The notes below the pieces were generated by a model. That model saw only the letters and a program-made list of their open reading frames with translations. It did not search any database and was not told where the DNA came from. From positions 1 to 64,000 of IMG/VR virus record IMGVR_UViG_3300037225_000466: 64,000 nucleotides of DNA. The stretch is one strand, 5' to 3'. The DNA is from a virus. The first letter of the stretch is position 1. Each line of letters opens with the position of its first letter. The position numbers and the translations under genes are program-made. Shown piece after piece: positions 18,047-61,726 of the stretch.

Positions 18047-18180
18047 CGGACTTACGGCGTGAAACAAGCATATAAACATGGGATAGCCAAGTCGATAGGT
18101 TGAACCGTAAGTCCGAAATAAATAATATATTTAATTGTTTTCATAGATAACCATCCTATTTTTTATACTTGTTTCACGGG
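18047..18180 (-). promoter_or_regulatory. structured 5' leader with interleaved 11-bp stems
   Basis: On the minus strand four perfect arms appear in the order A (CGTGAAACAAG, 18178-18168), B (CGGACTTACGG, 18115-18105), A' (18068-18058) and B' (18057-18047). A pairs with A' and B with B' over 11 bases each, an H-type pseudoknot order with no base between A' and B'. Arm A starts within a few bases of the predicted transcription start. B' is followed by TTTATTTTT, so the B stem could also act as a weak terminator. Regulation of the replication genes is inferred. Confidence 0.65.
18052..18144 (-). CDS. possible 30-residue leader peptide
   Basis: A 31-codon frame lies wholly inside the structured leader. 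It begins MKTIKYIIYFGLTV, has AGGATGG about eight bases upstream of its ATG, and is hydrophobic with two Cys near the end (CLYACFTP). Its stop codon TAA falls inside stem arm B'. A ribosome translating it would melt arms B and A', so it could couple translation to leader folding. It may also be a chance frame. Confidence 0.35.
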   Translation of the reverse strand: MKTIKYIIYFGLTVQPIDLAIPCLYACFTP

Positions 18181-26598: not shown

Positions 26599-26817
26599 AT
26601 GAAAGAAGTTAAATTGTTAGAAAATTACGATATTTGTACTTTTGAAAATCAATCGCAATTTATACGTTATGATTGGGAAAATATGTTTATTAATGAGGTT
26701 ATCTTTATAGAAGACGACCAAAAGTCTGATTATAATCAAGTTGGATATTTTCATGTCATTGCCTTTGCTATTAATTCTATTACTGACAATGAAGTAATCC
26801 TAAGAATAGCAAATTAA
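26599..26817 (+). CDS. small acidic hypothetical protein, first rightward gene
   Basis: A 72-residue acidic protein starting MKEVKLLENYDICTFENQSQ, compact with alternating hydrophobic residues. AAAAGG lies nine bases before the ATG. As the promoter-proximal gene of the rightward arm it is probably made early. No family is recognised. Confidence 0.65.
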   Translation: MKEVKLLENYDICTFENQSQFIRYDWENMFINEVIFIEDDQKSDYNQVGYFHVIAFAINSITDNEVILRIAN

Positions 26818-26823
26818 TTTTTC

Positions 26824-26894
26824 ACGTGGTTTAACTATTAGTAGTTAAGTAACTCATTATTACAAACCACGTCAAATAATAGCATTAAGCTATT
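26824..26894 (+). promoter_or_regulatory. three-way-junction RNA plus ATTAA-loop hairpin
   Basis: ACGTGGTTT (26824-26832) pairs perfectly with AAACCACGT (26864-26872). Inside are two hairpins: AACTA-TTAG-TAGTT and GTAA-CTCATTA-TTAC, the latter with a seven-base loop. A separate hairpin AATAGC-ATTAA-GCTATT follows at 26878-26894, then AAAAGG and the ATG of 26925. The arrangement resembles the tRNA-like spacers downstream, but no T-loop motif is present. Confidence 0.55.
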
Positions 26895-26924
26895 TTATGT
26901 ATAATTTATTTAAAAGGTCTCAAA

Positions 26925-27506
26925 ATGGAAAACTTAACAATTAACAAAAAGTCTGTTAAAGACGAAATTGCAGAATTAGAGGAATTACTATTATCTCCAT
27001 TAATGCAAAACGCAAAACAGGGCACATCATTATTTGTTCTCAAGGCAAGTTCAGAAAAAAGTCTCAATGCCTTAAAAGCTAAGGAACAAACGGAAATTTT
27101 AAACAATGGTTATTCTCAAAGTTTGTTTGAGTGTCTTTCTGTTTTCCATGAAGATTACCCAGAGCTTAAAATTACAGTAGAACAGATTAATAAAATGGTA
27201 GAGAAAGATAAAAATATTGCTCTTGGTGCAAAACAAATTTCTAATGGTACGAAAATTAATACACCTATTAATAGCATTGAGTTTCTTACAATTACTAATG
27301 AGAAACAAGTTTTTGCAGGCGGTTATAATGCTGTCTATAAGCAATTAGGCATTGATATTGAAAGTCTCAAGAGTGCAAACGGTAATTTTAAACCACAGGC
27401 AAGTGGCAATCCTAAGCTAAGGGAAGCACTTAGGGATTTAGGTTATACGGAAATGACCGTAAATTATGAAAACGGTACTAATATTGTTATTGACTTGACT
27501 AAGTAA
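26925..27506 (+). CDS. hypothetical protein, isolated early transcription unit
   Basis: A 193-residue mostly helical protein starting MENLTINKKSVKDEIAELEE, with a C-terminal domain (NPKLREALRDLGYTEMTVN). No enzyme motif is seen. AAAAGG precedes the ATG. It is the only gene between a branched RNA element and an intrinsic terminator, so it ends the promoter-proximal part of the operon and may be highly expressed. Confidence 0.7.
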   Translation: MENLTINKKSVKDEIAELEELLLSPLMQNAKQGTSLFVLKASSEKSLNALKAKEQTEILNNGYSQSLFECLSVFHEDYPELKITVEQINKMVEKDKNIALGAKQISNGTKINTPINSIEFLTITNEKQVFAGGYNAVYKQLGIDIESLKSANGNFKPQASGNPKLREALRDLGYTEMTVNYENGTNIVIDLTK

Positions 27507-27514
27507 ATTTATTA

Positions 27515-27550
27515 GGTACGGTTTGCCCGTTGGTTTACCGTACCTTTTTT
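27515..27550 (+). terminator. intrinsic terminator after second rightward gene
   Basis: GGTACGGT and ACCGTACC form a perfect eight-pair stem around a 14-base loop, followed directly by TTTTTT. It starts nine bases after the stop of 26925-27506. Downstream genes need either readthrough or another promoter; only a weak TTTA-N20-TAACTTTA was seen at about 27550-27580. Confidence 0.85.
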
Positions 27551-27605
27551 ATTCTCAAAATAACAAGTAATTAACTTTATTAGTCTTAACTAACAAATTT
27601 AGCCC

Positions 27606-27648
27606 TATACAAATGTATGGGTAAACAATTTTAAGAGCTTATAAGCTA
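27606..27648 (+). promoter_or_regulatory. two short intergenic hairpins before 27665 gene
   Basis: CCC(T)ATAC-AAAT-GTATGGG forms a bulged stem near 27603-27621. AGCTTATAAGCT, a 12-base palindrome, follows near 27638-27649 and can form a small hairpin just before AAAAGG. The second is in the same place, relative to the ribosome site, as the ATTAA-loop hairpins at other starts in this arm. Confidence 0.45.
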
Positions 27649-27664
27649 AAAGGATTGGGTAAAA

Positions 27665-27934
27665 ATGAATGAAAATATAAAATTAATTGAACAATCTCCC
27701 TTTTATGTCATTAGGAATAAAAAGGGATTGTATCTTTTTAGAATGGATGCATCTCCAAAGAATCGTTGGACTAAATCCTGGTCTTATGGATGTTATAGTT
27801 CGATTAGTCTTAAAGAAGCAATTGGCGATAAAAATGAGTTAATTTGTCAAATGATGGATAAAAGCAAACCGTTTATTTGTACTGTTAATTACTCGATTAC
27901 AATTACTAAAACTAAATATCCGAAAAAGGATTAA
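27665..27934 (+). CDS. small hypothetical protein
   Basis: An 89-residue basic, aromatic-rich protein starting MNENIKLIEQSPFYVIRNKK. The alternating pattern suggests a small beta sheet (FYVIRNKKGLYLFRMD) followed by a helix. It is flanked by hairpins upstream and a tRNA-like element downstream. No family is recognised. Confidence 0.65.
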   Translation: MNENIKLIEQSPFYVIRNKKGLYLFRMDASPKNRWTKSWSYGCYSSISLKEAIGDKNELICQMMDKSKPFICTVNYSITITKTKYPKKD

Positions 27935-27939
27935 ACCTA

Positions 27940-28014
27940 ATTAGGATTCAGGTGAAAGAGAATCCTGGCGGAGCAAATGGTTGATGAGAGTTCGATTCTC
28001 TCCGCTCCCCTAAT
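27940..28014 (+). ncRNA. tRNA-like element, degenerate (75 nt)
   Basis: ATTAGG (27940-27945) pairs with CCTAAT (28009-28014). Inside, ATTC and GAAT close a ten-base loop containing GGTG, much like a D-arm. A second branch has GGAGC/GCTCC, an 11-base insert, and GAGAG-TTCGATT-CTCTC, a perfect T-arm sequence. No five-pair stem with a seven-base anticodon loop was found. It looks like a tRNA derivative that has lost its anticodon arm. A short hairpin CAGC-ATTAA-GCTG follows, then AAAAGG. Confidence 0.5.
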
Positions 28015-28058
28015 CAGCATTAAGCTGGATTTGGCAAATTTTATTAAAAGGTCTCAAA

Positions 28059-29117
28059 ATGAATAAAGAAACTGCAATTAACAATTTTAAAGAACAAAAG
28101 ATTAATCGTCGCTGGAAATCAGTGGATTGGAAATCCAATAGACTGTATTGCGAAGGCGATTATCTTTATTCCTATGGACATCACTTTTGCCTTGCTAAAA
28201 GGATGATTCGGGACGATAAACCGTTTTATTTGCTCAATGGTGATACGTATAGTTCGGAAACATCTAAACATCAATCCCATGTTTTAAGAGCTATGAAACC
28301 AAACGAACATACAATCGTATCGTTTACGGCTCTCCAGACAATCGGAGCAAACTATAAAGAAATTCAAGGCGATGATATTCTGGATTTCTCAGGAGCAAAA
28401 ACAATGTTAATCCATTGGAAAAATGATAGGTATTATTTAGGTCTCAAAGGCAATAAACCTTTTGGCTCCAATCAACAAGGAATGCCAATCTGGGAAAAAA
28501 TTGAAAAAGATTCCGAAGGAAAGATTATTCGTAAAGAAGGATACTGGTATATCCTGGGCGGGGTGCTTATCAATGCAAATCTTTCTACCTTAGCTAAAAT
28601 CGGTGATAGGGATTTTGAAAGACAAGTGAACTATAAAGCAAAAATCTATTGTGGGATGGACGAACGGCAATATTTTATTGCTGAACTTAATCCTGATGAA
28701 AACTATTATATCGGCACAACTAATGAGGCTGTCAAATCCTTAATGCCTTCACGTTTACGTAATGATACCGATTCTATTATCATTCGTCAAGGCGAATGGT
28801 TTTTTAGGAAAGTGGATTTTGACTTGGAAAAATTCAGAATCGAAAAGGGATTGAGTAAAACTAAACTTAATAAAGCTATAAAGTTTATTGAGTTACCACG
28901 TCGTAACGATAGAAGTTCAAGGCACGTTGTAAGAGCATTATATCCTGAGAATGGGATTAATGAAGGTTCTACACTTGTTACAGGAAAAGTGTATCATAAA
29001 AATTCATTCAATAATCTTGCAACAGGACAACACGCAATCGTAAATTTAGATGGCTGGTTTCAGTTTTATCATAATACAGAAGTAAGAAGTGTATCGTCTC
29101 AAGGGAAAGTTGATTAA
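28059..29117 (+). CDS. hypothetical protein, largest of the early arm
   Basis: A 352-residue basic protein starting MNKETAINNFKEQKINRRWK. It is rich in Tyr, Trp and Arg (KSVDWKSNRLYCEGDYLYSYG) and appears to contain repeated beta-type modules, with similar 'YY-x-G' strands near residues 127-132 and 226-229. No catalytic motif is seen. Its stop codon TAA overlaps the 5' strand of the mini tRNA-like element at 29116. The function is unknown. Confidence 0.7.
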   Translation: MNKETAINNFKEQKINRRWKSVDWKSNRLYCEGDYLYSYGHHFCLAKRMIRDDKPFYLLNGDTYSSETSKHQSHVLRAMKPNEHTIVSFTALQTIGANYKEIQGDDILDFSGAKTMLIHWKNDRYYLGLKGNKPFGSNQQGMPIWEKIEKDSEGKIIRKEGYWYILGGVLINANLSTLAKIGDRDFERQVNYKAKIYCGMDERQYFIAELNPDENYYIGTTNEAVKSLMPSRLRNDTDSIIIRQGEWFFRKVDFDLEKFRIEKGLSKTKLNKAIKFIELPRRNDRSSRHVVRALYPENGINEGSTLVTGKVYHKNSFNNLATGQHAIVNLDGWFQFYHNTEVRSVSSQGKVD

Positions 29118-29158
29118 TCAGCAAAGGAATCAGGGGAGTTCGATTCTCCCCGCTGATT
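29116..29158 (+). ncRNA. mini tRNA-like element: acceptor plus T-arm only
   Basis: AATCAGC (29116-29122) pairs perfectly with GCTGATT (29152-29158), seven pairs like an acceptor stem. It is followed by only ten bases and then GGGGAG-TTCGATT-CTCCCC, a T-arm with a canonical loop. D and anticodon arms are absent. The ten-base insert itself contains a second AATCAG copy that can pair with the same 3' strand, so two alternative folds exist. A hairpin ATTTG-TTT-CAAAT and AAAAGG follow before the next start. Confidence 0.6.
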
Positions 29159-29191
29159 CTAATTATTTGTTTCAAATTTAAAAGGTCTACT

Positions 29192-29290
29192 ATGTATCCA
29201 ATTATTTATTTATTGTGCCTTGTGGCGATTATGTTCGGGCTTGGATGCCTCGCATATCCACAATGGACTAAGAAAGATGAGGGTATTTAA
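29192..29290 (+). CDS. 32-residue single-span membrane peptide
   Basis: Thirty-three codons starting MYPIIYLLCLVAIMFGLGCL, one hydrophobic span with two Cys, then a short charged tail (WTKKDEGI). AAAAGG lies eight bases before the ATG. The stop is immediately followed by the ATG of the next gene. Small early membrane peptides in phages often alter host membrane proteins; the target is unknown. Confidence 0.65.
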   Translation: MYPIIYLLCLVAIMFGLGCLAYPQWTKKDEGI

Positions 29291-29725
29291 ATGGGATGGG
29301 ATTTCTATACCGATAAGAAAATTACCAAAAAAATGGTAGTTAGAGAACTGTCAAACCAATCATTCAAATTAATGAATGGAACAAATTGCAAGGTGGTTGC
29401 ATCTCGACTTGTGTATGATTCGACCGATGATAATACCTGTAATCATTTATGGGTGGTTAAAGAAATTAGCGGGGTTAATGATAAGGGATTACGGATTGTT
29501 GATAACTATGTTATAGTCTTATATCTCCTTAAAAAAGAAAGTGGTTGTTGGGGATATAAAGGTATGGAGGAATCTTGCGAGCCGTTCTATTACGATTGCC
29601 CGTTAGAGTTTTTGGAATACGAACTAAATTATCATACTTGCCCAGATTGGCGTAAAGCTGTCAAGGCATATCATTTCCGCAAAAATCCATTAAGTGTGGT
29701 TTTAGAAGATAAGGAGGATTTATGA
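29291..29725 (+). CDS. DUF6927-like phage protein
   Basis: A 144-residue protein starting MGWDFYTDKKITKKM. Later motifs are YDSTDDNTCNHLWVVKE, VLYLLKKESGCWGYKGMEES and YYDCPLEFLE. The MGW start, the 'CWGYKxMxES' block and 'YYxCPLxFL' are as I remember for the DUF6927 family of phage proteins, which have no assigned function. It starts directly after the membrane peptide gene and overlaps the next gene by four bases. Confidence 0.65.
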   Translation: MGWDFYTDKKITKKMVVRELSNQSFKLMNGTNCKVVASRLVYDSTDDNTCNHLWVVKEISGVNDKGLRIVDNYVIVLYLLKKESGCWGYKGMEESCEPFYYDCPLEFLEYELNYHTCPDWRKAVKAYHFRKNPLSVVLEDKEDL

Positions 29726-29997
29726 CACTCGCAGAACTAAAAACAAATAATCCCCATTGGTTCAATCCTGAAAATCGCAGGATATTCGGGGATTTGGGTT
29801 ACGGTCTCAAAACAGGTAAAAAATCAGGCAGTCAGTTTCTCGTACAGAAAACTAATAAATGGTCTGATATGTTCGAAAAAGATAAGAAACGGATTTTCTT
29901 TGTTCTCCATCCTATTGTAAACGGGAAAATAGAAAGTGCTATCGAAGAAGATTTTTTCTCAATTAAAGAAGTTAAACAATATTTGAGGGATAAATGA
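29722..29997 (+). CDS. small basic hypothetical protein
   Basis: A 91-residue basic protein starting MTLAELKTNNPHWFNPENRR, with several Lys/Gly turns and an acidic C-terminal helix (AIEEDFFSIKEVKQYLRD). AAGGAGGA precedes the ATG. Both ends overlap neighbours by four bases. No family is recognised. Confidence 0.65.
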   Translation: MTLAELKTNNPHWFNPENRRIFGDLGYGLKTGKKSGSQFLVQKTNKWSDMFEKDKKRIFFVLHPIVNGKIESAIEEDFFSIKEVKQYLRDK

Positions 29998-30179
29998 TGC
30001 ACACTTATAATCTTACATTAATCGGCTCGGTGGTTTATGATAGAAATAATCATAAATGGATAGCTCAAAGAATCGGAAGAGTTATCAAATTTGAGTGCCT
30101 TGCCGATGCAAAAAGAGAAGCGGATTTACTGCTCAAGAAATTCCACTGTTTAACTTATGATTTGTATAAAATTATTTGA
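29994..30179 (+). CDS. small hypothetical protein
   Basis: A 61-residue protein starting MMHTYNLTLIGSVVYDRNNH, with a beta hairpin-like first half and a helical second half (FECLADAKREADLLLKKF). It overlaps the previous gene as ATGA. The second Met is an alternative start. The function is unknown. Confidence 0.6.
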   Translation: MMHTYNLTLIGSVVYDRNNHKWIAQRIGRVIKFECLADAKREADLLLKKFHCLTYDLYKII

Positions 30180-30189
30180 GGGATAAATA

Positions 30190-30399
30190 ATGCTAACTAA
30201 AAAAGATTTTCAAGGGATGGCTGTTGAAATTAAATCTTTAATTGCCAAAAATGCTTCTCCTGATTTTGTAGATGGCTATATTCGGGCTTGTGTGGATATA
30301 GCTGTCGAAAACCCAAACTTTAATGCAAAACGGTTTTATGATGCCTGTGGTATTGACGGCTATCCAGAAATAAGATATACAGGAGAAAGATATGACTAA
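30190..30399 (+). CDS. small hypothetical protein
   Basis: A 69-residue helical protein starting MLTKKDFQGMAVEIKSLIAK, ending GYPEIRYTGERYD. It overlaps the next gene by eight bases. GAGGGA precedes the start. No family is recognised. Confidence 0.6.
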   Translation: MLTKKDFQGMAVEIKSLIAKNASPDFVDGYIRACVDIAVENPNFNAKRFYDACGIDGYPEIRYTGERYD

Positions 30400-30619
30400 T
30401 CTCGACAAAGCCGTTGATCATGCCCGCACTCTTCTCAAATCCCTTGAGTTTGGCAGTGCCTGTTTTAAAGCAGGTAAAGAGTTTAATGTGGATTCGGCAG
30501 AAATTGCTCGTGTCTTAGCTTCACACTCTGCAATGAAACGGAAACGTACTTTTTCAGAGCAGGCGATTCTGGTTCGTGTAAAAAATGAAGTTGCAAACAA
30601 AGTAAAGGATTTAAGGTAA
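30392..30619 (+). CDS. small basic helical protein
   Basis: A 75-residue protein starting MTNLDKAVDHARTLLKSLEF, entirely helical with a basic C-terminal half (KRKRTFSEQAILVRVKNEV). AGGAGA precedes the ATG. A small DNA-binding role is conceivable given its charge, but no motif is seen. It touches the next start (TAATG). Confidence 0.6.
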   Translation: MTNLDKAVDHARTLLKSLEFGSACFKAGKEFNVDSAEIARVLASHSAMKRKRTFSEQAILVRVKNEVANKVKDLR

Positions 30620-30804
30620 TGAAAAAATTTATTTTTAGCCGTGAATATCTAAATGAATCCGAAGATGAGACTTGGGCGGATTTCGCCAAAGACCTTGAAC
30701 AAGGTATCGAAGCTAATAAAGACGATTTCGATTGTGTCGAAGAGCCAATGGAAGATTGGGAAAATGAAATGTGGCATCAGCAAAAAGAGATGTATGAGGA
30801 GTAA
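30619..30804 (+). CDS. small acidic hypothetical protein
   Basis: A 61-residue protein starting MKKFIFSREYLNESEDETWA, with about one third Asp and Glu and several Trp. It ends eight bases before the tRNA-His gene. Its acidity would suit a nucleic-acid mimic or inhibitor, but this is a guess. Confidence 0.55.
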   Translation: MKKFIFSREYLNESEDETWADFAKDLEQGIEANKDDFDCVEEPMEDWENEMWHQQKEMYEE

Positions 30805-30811
30805 TCTCAAT

Positions 30812-30884
30812 GGTGATAATAGTTCAATTGGTAGAGCATCGGTCTGTGGAACCGAAGACGAGAGTTCAATCCTCTCTTATCACT
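30812..30884 (+). tRNA. tRNA-His (anticodon GTG)
   Basis: A full cloverleaf can be drawn. The acceptor GTGATAA pairs perfectly with TTATCAC, with an extra G at -1 as expected for tRNA-His. The D-arm is GTTC-AATTGGTA-GAGC. The anticodon arm is TCGGT-CTGTGGA-ACCGA with anticodon GTG. The T-arm is GAGAG-TTCAATC-CTCTC. CCA is not encoded. Base 73 is T where bacterial tRNA-His usually has C. It is the only intact tRNA seen in the window and is followed by a TCCGC-AAAAA-GCGGA hairpin. Confidence 0.9.
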
Positions 30885-30929
30885 CTAATCCGCAAAAAGC
30901 GGAATTGTTAAACTTTTAAGGGTCGAGTT

Positions 30930-31265
30930 ATGAAAACAGAGTCAATGCAAATCGTCGGAAAAGATATATATCCATTTTCCGAGAAAAGAACAGAATATAA
31001 TTATCAGGTGGATTTGTCTATCAAACCAGAGATGGTGGAAATATCGATTTACGATTCCAAGGGCAATTTGCTTCATGGCAATCTCCCTGCAATCGGACTT
31101 CGCAATGCAGAGCAAACCGCAGAACGATTACTTAATAAAATTAAGTTCAATCAAAAGTTCCTTCACTTCGATGATAAACTTATGAATGTGGAAAGTGCTT
31201 TCAGAATGGAAAGGGATTTCGTATATGGGATTTCGTTCGATTTTATCAAAAGGAGGTCTGCATGA
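30930..31265 (+). CDS. hypothetical protein
   Basis: A 111-residue protein starting MKTESMQIVGKDIYPFSEKR. It appears to be a small beta sheet (VDLSIKPEMVEISIYDSKGN) followed by helices. TAAGGG precedes the ATG after a hairpin next to the tRNA-His gene. It overlaps the next gene by four bases. No family is recognised. Confidence 0.65.
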   Translation: MKTESMQIVGKDIYPFSEKRTEYNYQVDLSIKPEMVEISIYDSKGNLLHGNLPAIGLRNAEQTAERLLNKIKFNQKFLHFDDKLMNVESAFRMERDFVYGISFDFIKRRSA

Positions 31266-31642
31266 AATCTCAAAAACAAAAAGCACTCGAAGCGATAGAC
31301 GAACTAATCAAAAGATATTCCACAGGTAAGACTTGGGTGAATTGGGGTGACGGGGCAAGCTGTCCACTGTGCCAAATCTATCTACTGAAAAATAAAGACA
31401 TGGATTCTTGCAGGGGTTGCCCAATGGCAAATAAGGAGGGCGGGCACGGCTGTATCATACATAAAACATGGATGGATTTACAGGATGCCTATGTGGGTAT
31501 TTGGGGAGAATTTGAAACTCCTTTAATTTTTACACGAGCTAAAGCATTAAAGAAATTTAAAAAGTTAATCGAAAATGAACCAGCTAAAAAATTCACGGTC
31601 AAAGGTTGGACGTTCTTTAAACAAAATAAAAAGTTTTATTAA
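31262..31642 (+). CDS. Cys-rich probable zinc-binding phage protein
   Basis: A 126-residue basic protein. Residues about 30-65 hold ASCPLCQIYL, then CRGCPMANKEGGHGCIIH, giving Cys at two CxxC pairs plus another Cys and His, enough for one or two metal sites. The C-terminal helix is Lys-rich (ALKKFKKLIENEPAKKF). Proteins with this CPLC...CxxCP layout are common unknowns in phages. It is followed by the D-armless tRNA-like element. Confidence 0.65.
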   Translation: MKSQKQKALEAIDELIKRYSTGKTWVNWGDGASCPLCQIYLLKNKDMDSCRGCPMANKEGGHGCIIHKTWMDLQDAYVGIWGEFETPLIFTRAKALKKFKKLIENEPAKKFTVKGWTFFKQNKKFY

Positions 31643-31647
31643 TAATC

Positions 31648-31714
31648 GGGTGGTCTTGGAGGATAATGTTACAGACCTTTCGTTATCAAATGGTTCAATT
31701 CCATTTGCCACCCC
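31648..31714 (+). ncRNA. tRNA-like element lacking a D-arm (67 nt)
   Basis: GGGTGGT (31648-31654) pairs with GCCACCC (31707-31713), with one G-T pair. The T-arm is AAATGG-TTCAATT-CCATTT, with a canonical T-loop. Between them lie seven unpaired bases and one long hairpin, GATAATG (31662-31668) with CGTTATC (31681-31687), closing a 12-base loop rather than a seven-base anticodon loop. No D-arm can be drawn. A CCGC-ATTAA-GCGG hairpin follows at 31718-31730, then AAAAGG and AAGGAG before the 31759 start. Confidence 0.55.
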
Positions 31715-31758
31715 AATCCGCATTAAGCGGGCAAAAGGTCAAATTATAAGGAGAGATC

Positions 31759-32082
31759 ATGAAAGTCTATGCTTTAGAAAATGGAGACCCTTACGATCCT
31801 CAGGATACGCCATTATGGTCAGTGGTGCGAGATGAAGACGGCAAGACCTTTTCTATCCACACCTTCGGGGTGAATATAGAAAAAGGGGAAGAAATCGAAT
31901 GTGAATATGTTTGTGAACTCACTATGGATGAAATGATTGAATTTATCAGCAGGCTGAATAAGGTCTATTTCGGCGGGATAAATACGTATGACGACAGAAT
32001 GTTTAATCTTGTTGCGGTGATGGCGAGACCAGGAAACAATCCACCGCCAGAGGATTTCGGAGGGGTGCAGGTGAATGTATGA
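31759..32082 (+). CDS. hypothetical protein
   Basis: A 107-residue acidic protein starting MKVYALENGDPYDPQDTPLW. The strands VRDEDGKTFSIHTFG and IECEYVCELTMDE suggest a small beta domain, with a disordered Pro-rich end. AAGGAG precedes the ATG. It overlaps the next gene by four bases. No family is recognised. Confidence 0.65.
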   Translation: MKVYALENGDPYDPQDTPLWSVVRDEDGKTFSIHTFGVNIEKGEEIECEYVCELTMDEMIEFISRLNKVYFGGINTYDDRMFNLVAVMARPGNNPPPEDFGGVQVNV

Positions 32083-36224: not shown

Positions 36225-36301
36225 AGTATCAGAGTAGTCCGCTACAAAGTAGGAAGTTAAGAATAGATTATCGAAGGATAGGCTCTTATTACTCTGATAC
36301 T
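36225..36301 (+). ncRNA. 77-nt structured intergenic RNA, 12-bp closing stem
   Basis: AGTATCAGAGTA (36225-36236) pairs perfectly with TACTCTGATACT (36290-36301). Inside are a hairpin CTAC-AAA-GTAG and an arm TAAGA/TCTTA capped by TATC-GAAG-GATA, giving a three-way junction of tRNA size. There is no T-loop motif. It lies between a membrane-peptide gene and a YopX gene whose AAGGAG follows six bases later. It may be a leader element, a processing site or a small RNA; no known riboswitch or ribozyme core was matched. Confidence 0.55.
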
Positions 36302-40535: not shown

Positions 40536-40567
40536 CTTGCATTATATTAGAATATTCCGTAATTTTG
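40536..40567 (+). promoter_or_regulatory. Bacteroidota-type promoter before Cys-rich small gene
   Basis: CTTG, 20 bases, TAATTTTG, a perfect match to the rule seen at the other promoters. Transcription would start near 40574, giving a 30-base leader for the 35-residue protein at 40606. It would also serve the HNH, nuclease and single-strand-binding-like genes downstream. Confidence 0.75.
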
Positions 40568-40605: not shown

Positions 40606-40713
40606 ATGCAATTAAAAATTAATCAGACTGCCTGCAAATCCTGTCTCAATCGCTCTCTGCGTTGTTTCAATGATTGTTACAACAGGCAGTCTGAATATTT
40701 GAGGTGGATATGA
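40606..40713 (+). CDS. 35-residue four-Cys mini-protein
   Basis: Thirty-six codons starting MQLKINQTACKSCLNRSL. It has four Cys as C-x2-C...C-x3-C (ACKSC and RCFNDC), enough for one zinc site. AAAGAGAG precedes the ATG, and the stop overlaps the HNH gene start as ATGA. The coding sequence contains a perfect 12-bp inverted repeat, TCAGACTGCCTG with CAGGCAGTCTGA, enclosing about 48 bases. So the mRNA should fold almost entirely into one hairpin. A real protein is likely but the function is unknown. Confidence 0.6.
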   Translation: MQLKINQTACKSCLNRSLRCFNDCYNRQSEYLRWI

Positions 40714-61148: not shown

Positions 61149-61726
61149 AACTCCATTAAAGAATAACTTAAACCTACAAAAACTCCGACACAATTGCCCC
61201 AACCGCTTCCTACCAATCCGCCTCCTGCTCCCAGACCAATAGTTATATGCCACTTCTTATGGATTATCATAGTGTCGACTCTTGATAAAGAAAGGATAGT
61301 ATCAGGTCTGAATCGAATTACCGTACTCAGGAGGTTTTCTGGAAAGGCGTAAGAGCTTCTGATACTATCCCCTCGTGCAATCGTGTCAATCTCACTCGTG
61401 AATGGCTTTGTCAGAATATAGTTCTGAACCTCGCCAAATTTTATTATTTTTCTTTCTAAAGATTTGTTACTATTAAAAATGTCCGCCGTATAATCCAAAG
61501 TGTCGCAAGGCGTTATTATCGTGTCATGCAATAGTTTGGTCCTGAAAGTCACCTGCCCCTCACCCTCAATTATCAATGGTGGCTGAGTAGTGATGATCCT
61601 CAACGTGTCTGTCTTGCCTTTCACATACTCCACAGTTCCCTTGGAATGGAATACTGTCAGCATCAGGGCGACACCTAATGCTATCCCGATACCTATTGAA
61701 AGTGCGTAATATTTTACATTACTCAT
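61145..61726 (-). CDS. membrane-anchored spanin-like or envelope protein
   Basis: A 193-residue protein with one N-terminal membrane segment (YYALSIGIGIALGVALMLTVF), then a beta-rich periplasmic part (VTFRTKLLHDTIITPCDTLD) and a Gly-rich C-terminus (ITIGLGAGGGLVGSGWG). A long extracytoplasmic beta domain after a single span, located near lysis genes, could be a spanin or wall-binding protein. The Gly-rich end recalls small outer-membrane-type strands. The function is inferred. Confidence 0.55.
   Translation of the reverse strand: MSNVKYYALSIGIGIALGVALMLTVFHSKGTVEYVKGKTDTLRIITTQPPLIIEGEGQVTFRTKLLHDTIITPCDTLDYTADIFNSNKSLERKIIKFGEVQNYILTKPFTSEIDTIARGDSIRSSYAFPENLLSTVIRFRPDTILSLSRVDTMIIHKKWHITIGLGAGGGLVGSGWGNCVGVFVGLSYSLMEL

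Follow-up and report, generated by a model that had tools for sequence, protein, structure and literature searches.

Minimal tRNA-like elements in the gene gaps of a phage are candidate signals for splitting its early polycistron

We analyzed a stretch of virus DNA (IMG/VR record IMGVR_UViG_3300037225_000466, positions 1 to 64,000; hereafter the window, to which all coordinates refer, the record as a whole being a 76.8-kb virus genome) in which five structured elements, E1 to E5, lie on the coding strand in gaps between co-directional genes. Our favored explanation, which we hold to be moderately probable, is that three of these elements (E2, E3 and E5), together with a genuine transfer RNA for histidine (tRNA-His, E4), punctuate an early polycistron that is split by host RNase Z and mostly by RNase P as well. 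The elements are most likely selected structures, and cleavage by RNase P and RNase Z would fit them well.

Results

Anatomy of the elements

E3 (29116-29158, +), which the original prediction had described as an acceptor-plus-T-arm element, bears out that description with a 7-bp acceptor (AATCAGC/GCTGATT), a 10-nt linker and a 6-bp T-stem (AATCAGC-AAAGGAATCA-GGGGAG-TTCGATT-CTCCCC-GCTGATT, with AAAGGAATCA as linker). E5 (31648-31714, +) likewise matches the D-armless tRNA-like structure proposed for it, having the layout GGGTGGT-CTTGGAG-(7-bp middle stem, 12-nt loop)-AAATGG-TTCAATT-CCATTT-GCCACCC, in which AAATGG-TTCAATT-CCATTT is the T-arm, and a D-armless model energy of -19.1 against a minimum free energy (MFE) of -19.3 kcal/mol. 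For E2, earlier drawn as a 75-nt tRNA-like element at 27940-28014, the larger form is weak, and the element is better read as a 43-nt acceptor-plus-T-arm minihelix at 27968-28010 (+) with T-loop TTCGATT (GCGGAGC-AAATGGTTGA-TGAGAG-TTCGATT-CTCTCC-GCTCCCC, with AAATGGTTGA as linker). The linkers of E2, E3 and E5 all contain GG, as the D-loop does, and this GG may mimic G18G19 of the D-loop. Two other identities do not fit: an intrinsic terminator, since a T-run is absent after each of E2, E3 and E5, and a tRNA pseudogene with pairing loss across all arms, since the acceptor and T-arm are retained and the anticodon is lost.

E4 is the intact tRNA-His (GTG) that had been predicted, located at 30813-30884 (+); ARAGORN and Rfam call this tRNA alone, and it alone reaches the gathering score of RF00005 (67.5 bits, E 1.5e-12), where the E2 T-arm obtains 12.5 bits and E3 and E5 are unlisted at E <= 1. 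Its discriminator, position 73 (30813-30885), is T, not C; T at this position is unusual for bacterial tRNA-His. E1 (26824-26872, +) had been proposed as a three-way junction, of which we found no clear sign: its MFE structure (-13.4 for 26821-26875; z-score -3.5, with 1 of 200 shuffles equally stable) is an imperfect hairpin, though a 9-bp closing stem (ACGTGGTTT/AAACCACGT) is present. Lacking a T-loop, E1 is stable yet not a tRNA mimic. The preceding stop codon lies 6 nt from E1, 8 nt from E4, 5 nt from E5 and 33 nt from the E2 minihelix, and E3 overlaps the stop codon of the gene upstream of it, a member of the family we call P0001.

Non-randomness and a shared downstream hairpin

Both strands of the whole 76.8-kb genome were scanned for T-arms (5-7-bp stem, TTCRANN-type loop) directly adjoined by an acceptor of 6-7 bp. 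Only four matches scored at least 25.8, namely E3 (33.8), E5 (33.3), the tRNA-His (28.2) and E2 (25.8), all on the + strand and within 3.8 kb. Among 4,754 dinucleotide shuffles, which carried a mean of 0.09 matches of at least 25.8 per genome, none reached 33.3, so that E3 and E5 stand above every shuffled genome. The pairings and TTCGATT or TTCAATT T-loops originally predicted are present at their positions. E2 is the weakest of the four, short matches of its quality occurring at 0.02 per shuffled genome.

Furthermore, a small hairpin begins 2-6 nt 3′ of every element: AATAGC-ATTAA-GCTATT after E1 (26878-26894, +), TCAGC-ATTAA-GCTGG after E2 (28014-28028, +), ATTTG-TTT-CAAAT after E3 (29165-29177, +; P 0.21 alone), TCCGC-AAAAA-GCGGA after the tRNA-His (30889-30903, +) and TCCGC-ATTAA-GCGGG after E5 (31717-31731, +). 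A GC-ATTAA-GC core with differing flanking pairs is thus repeated after E1, E2 and E5, with GC-AAAAA-GC after the tRNA-His. Taken jointly, the five hairpins have a mean score of 12.6 compared to 6.6 for shuffled sequence (0 of 1,000 as high), with individual P-values of 0.03-0.21. The presence of a like hairpin behind the genuine tRNA-His hints that the mimics are handled as tRNAs, and is the strongest local sign of this.

Elements of the same architecture in other phages

A homologue of the P0001 gene between E2 and E3 pointed to Gordonia phages in which compact, unannotated D-armless elements occupy early-operon gaps. Five distinct versions of these elements show four pairs changed on both sides, compared to 0.9 in shuffles, and these compensatory changes fall in the acceptor and T-stem; in Gordonia phage Octobien14, three elements were found. 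A sequence search with one Gordonia element reached Mycobacterium phage Indlulamithi, which carries 13 unannotated elements at 35.0-42.4 kb, nearly one per gap, followed by an annotated tRNA-Gln; no comparable short match arose when this genome was shuffled 200 times. Gaps of at least 50 nt hold an element in 10 of 14 cases in Papyrus, 10 of 16 in Fowlmouth and 11 of 17 in Cuke (annotated tRNAs being included in the counts for the latter two), with no match on the opposite strand.

The mycobacteriophage elements follow one plan, comprising a 6-7-bp acceptor, a GG-containing linker of ~11 nt, a 6-bp T-stem and a TTCGATT loop, and they begin just past a stop codon, with a small hairpin within a few nucleotides and the next gene thereafter. 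Across 48 of them, the hairpin that starts within 9 nt has a mean score of 17.0 compared to 4.4 in shuffles, most individual P-values being 0.00-0.01. Twenty-three elements of 42 nt align without gaps; the linker GG and GTTCGA are invariant and the stems variable. Within this alignment, 93.8% of cells are paired, all unpaired cells lying at the outermost acceptor position, and sliding the partners lowers pairing from 94% to at most 48%. Double-sided changes number 100 compared to 28 in shuffles, and are not all independent, as paralogues and copies from related genera make up many of the 23.

Three mycobacteriophage elements (L220, 5608-5649 and 10518-10582; L222, 4419-4478) overlap annotated gene starts, which suggests that the annotated start codons there lie too far upstream. 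A 48-nt acceptor-plus-T-arm minihelix also occurs 5′ of a P0001-family gene in a contig assigned by binning to a Thermoplasmatales archaeon (L210, 9566-9613), and is followed by a possible hairpin and a ribosome-binding site. Six primase-related phage contigs (L093, L095, L098, L099, L102 and L103) carry tRNA-like elements of 68-124 nt in which the acceptor and T-arm are good, a D-arm is mostly present and the middle is enlarged or odd and non-decoding; in L098, two such elements have one acceptor in common.

Blind covariance-model search

A covariance model built from the 23 mycobacteriophage sequences only (R1) returned E3 as its best match in the present phage (29117-29157; 24.9 bits, E 0.0039) and E2 as its second, marginal match (27970-28008; 19.9 bits, E 0.053), the next match having an E-value of 4.2. 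When R1 was applied to a further 1.56 Mb of phage and contig sequence, the E 0.05 threshold was passed only by two elements, both from Octobien14. Searches for close relatives of the window by megablast and blastn against phages and plasmids found none, nor did single-protein scans of IMG/VR with P0001 and the terminase or a search with the E3 pattern. Alignment of the primase identified one relative at 53% on a 6-kb contig and that of the capsid protein one at 47%, neither of which includes the element region.

Genomic context and further structured elements

Leftward genes give way to rightward ones at ~26 kb, and the elements fall within the initial 5 kb of this rightward block, whose transcript is probably early. 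The block starts with a 72-aa open reading frame (ORF; 26599-26817, +) 5′ of E1. A 193-aa ORF (26925-27506, +) and an 89-aa ORF (27665-27934, +), for neither of which a family match was found, follow E1 and precede E2, respectively. Element-free junctions in these 5 kb are tight or overlapping, except for the gap between these two ORFs (27507-27664), which contains a strong intrinsic-terminator-like hairpin with a T-run (27515-27550, +). Between E2 and E3 lies a 352-aa ORF of the P0001 family (28059-29117, +; phrog_7247/29643, function unknown), which is common across phages, bears the motifs YSYGxHF and NGDxYSxTTxxHQ, and has a fairly confident predicted fold (pLDDT 81) for which no fold match was found in the PDB. 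P0001 homologues were considered and rejected as a marker for the minihelix, most of ~85 loci being without one nearby and no firm link emerging. A 111-aa ORF (30930-31265, +) lies 3′ of the tRNA-His, a 126-aa ORF (31262-31642, +) 5′ of E5 and a 107-aa ORF (31759-32082, +) 3′ of E5.

The primase/helicase resembles counterparts in Flavobacterium and Tenacibaculum phages, so that the host probably belongs to the Bacteroidota. At 40537-40567 (+), a stretch similar to a promoter of Bacteroidota type (TTG ... TAATTTTG) supports this assignment; no enrichment of that promoter pattern was found.

Elsewhere in the window, a stable branched gap element at 36225-36301 (+), directly 5′ of a ribosome-binding site, is closed by an outer stem of 12 bp without mismatch (AGTATCAGAGTA), contains two inner hairpins and lacks a T-loop (z-score about -3.1 to -3.6). 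Outer stems of 11-12 bp also occur at 61294-61370 (-), 18047-18115 (-) and 40623-40694 (+), with z-scores of -4.6 to -5.0, and two of these three elements are outside every ORF of at least 60 aa. AGTATCAG/CTGATACT is common to the elements at 61294 and 36225. In a whole-genome scan, long outer stems were not clearly above shuffles.

Discussion

Under our favored explanation, E2, E3 and E5 would be tRNA mimics pared to the parts recognized by maturation enzymes, namely an acceptor stem, a T-arm and a linker GG replacing the D-loop. Host RNase Z, and at most sites RNase P too, would cut the polycistron at each mimic, giving the upstream message, trimmed by RNase P near its stop codon, a defined 3′-end beside that codon. 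The RNase Z cut past the acceptor would place the 5′-end of the downstream mRNA a few nucleotides ahead of the small hairpin, which may in turn protect this new end ahead of the ribosome-binding site. A hairpin close to the 5′-end is known to protect mRNA in Escherichia coli (ompA type). Substrate recognition by RNase P relies on the acceptor/T-arm stack, and a ruler principle, the measuring of pre-tRNAs, applies to RNase Z as well (PMC4919913); judged from their sequences, the putative mimics keep exactly the parts that these enzymes read, with the decoding parts gone. The original proposal that tRNA-like elements punctuate the operon is sustained in part: elements of the same class, with massive covariation, occupy most early-operon gaps of several actinobacteriophages and their model finds E3 and E2, whereas E1 carries no tRNA feature.

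Several observations weigh against this explanation. No CCA follows the acceptors. The E2 minihelix has two mismatches, its own MFE favors another pairing, and its R1 match (E 0.053) is weak by itself. For E3, ViennaRNA slightly favors a competing hairpin: the linker contains AATCAG a second time, and this copy pairs with the 3′-strand of the acceptor. The acceptor form is consequently populated at just 0-28% when flanks are included. RNase P cleavage at E3 would moreover cost the P0001 stop codon its last two bases, implying that RNase Z alone acts there or that the cut follows translation. R1 misses E1 and E5 in this phage, the latter being of the D-armless kind that R1 does not cover, and the tRNA-His is likewise not found by R1. 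E1, lacking a T-loop, carries the same downstream hairpin, which indicates that this hairpin is independent of a tRNA-like structure. Finally, the covariation is known from other phages, no close relative having been found for these exact loci.

Among the alternatives, the one that survives best, albeit as an improbable one, treats the elements as mRNA structures acting in cis without cleavage, either as barriers to exonucleases at 3′-ends or by insulating or coupling translation of neighboring genes. Such a role would suit stable folds positioned right past stop codons and ahead of ribosome-binding sites, as well as E1, which adopts the same arrangement without tRNA features; a plain barrier, however, would require neither conservation of the T-loop nor a GG linker nor an acceptor/T stack of near-tRNA size. 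It is rather unlikely that the elements act in trans as decoys, with freed mini-tRNAs occupying host enzymes or nucleases that act on tRNA ends. Bacterial immunity does target such ends, as described for Cas12a3, which cuts tRNA tails (PMC12851939), and several copies could supply the dose, but a single copy per gene gap and the strict flanking layout point to a role in cis.

We consider it equally unlikely that the elements are decaying tRNA genes, former phage tRNAs left functionless by deletion of the D and anticodon arms. Phages gain and lose tRNAs, a genuine tRNA-His lies among the elements, and one deletion could be enough to produce an element with perfect acceptor and T-arm. In 2.7 Mb of phage sequence, however, an acceptor plus T-arm without a normal anticodon arm occurs 26-31 times compared to ~4 by chance, while the converse remnant, an anticodon and T-arm with a broken acceptor, is at chance (0-2 compared to 0-1.75), an asymmetry that stays strong despite partial selection of the sequences and the presence of a few near-normal tRNAs among the 26-31. 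Mycobacteriophages, moreover, retain divergent copies, about a dozen of them, that show compensatory changes, which contradicts decay for the class. Least probable of all are transcription-control sites such as the RNA antiterminators of HK022 put type, which consist of two stem-loops and act on RNA polymerase: tandem structures do recur along the early operon, but tRNA elbow features are conserved and an equivalent position is held by a genuine tRNA gene, itself followed by the same type of hairpin.

Punctuation by tRNAs in mitochondrial polycistrons and by tRNA-like t-elements in plant mitochondria provides known cutting signals, which the phage elements resemble in placing a tRNA or tRNA-like fold between genes that are transcribed together. 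They differ from mitochondrial punctuation in belonging to a double-stranded DNA phage, in a minimal acceptor and T-arm without an anticodon arm and in the paired downstream hairpin, with cutting being our inference. Host RNase P cuts the phage M3 RNA, the P1/P7 C4 antisense RNA and the T4 gene 32 mRNA (PMC11143913). Whereas those substrates are single cases, the present elements form a repeated set with a shared architecture in successive gene gaps. For RNase P and RNase Z alike, minimal acceptor/T-arm model substrates exist whose shape is essentially that of E3 and of the mycobacteriophage elements. The phage elements differ in occurring naturally in genomes, in containing GG in the linker and in having mostly a stack of 12-13 bp. 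Cluster K mycobacteriophages carry start-associated sequences, short conserved repeats before early genes; these are likewise intergenic, whereas the present elements are covarying tRNA-like structures.

Extending the favored explanation, we give an even chance to a device shared by Mycobacterium, Gordonia and probably Bacteroidota phages, in which a mimic and hairpin lead host tRNA-maturation enzymes to split the early polycistron into messages capped by a 5′-hairpin, and in which ordinary tRNA genes act as this signal too. No description of phage elements of this kind was found in the open-access literature, coverage of which was incomplete. If true, this device would add a new level to the control of phage genes, exerted through dedicated minimal tRNA mimics, would account for the gaps that occur systematically in annotated genomes and would provide natural minimal substrates of RNase P and RNase Z. 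It would also offer a reason why phages retain tRNA genes and tRNA remnants, and it is directly testable in culturable mycobacteriophages.

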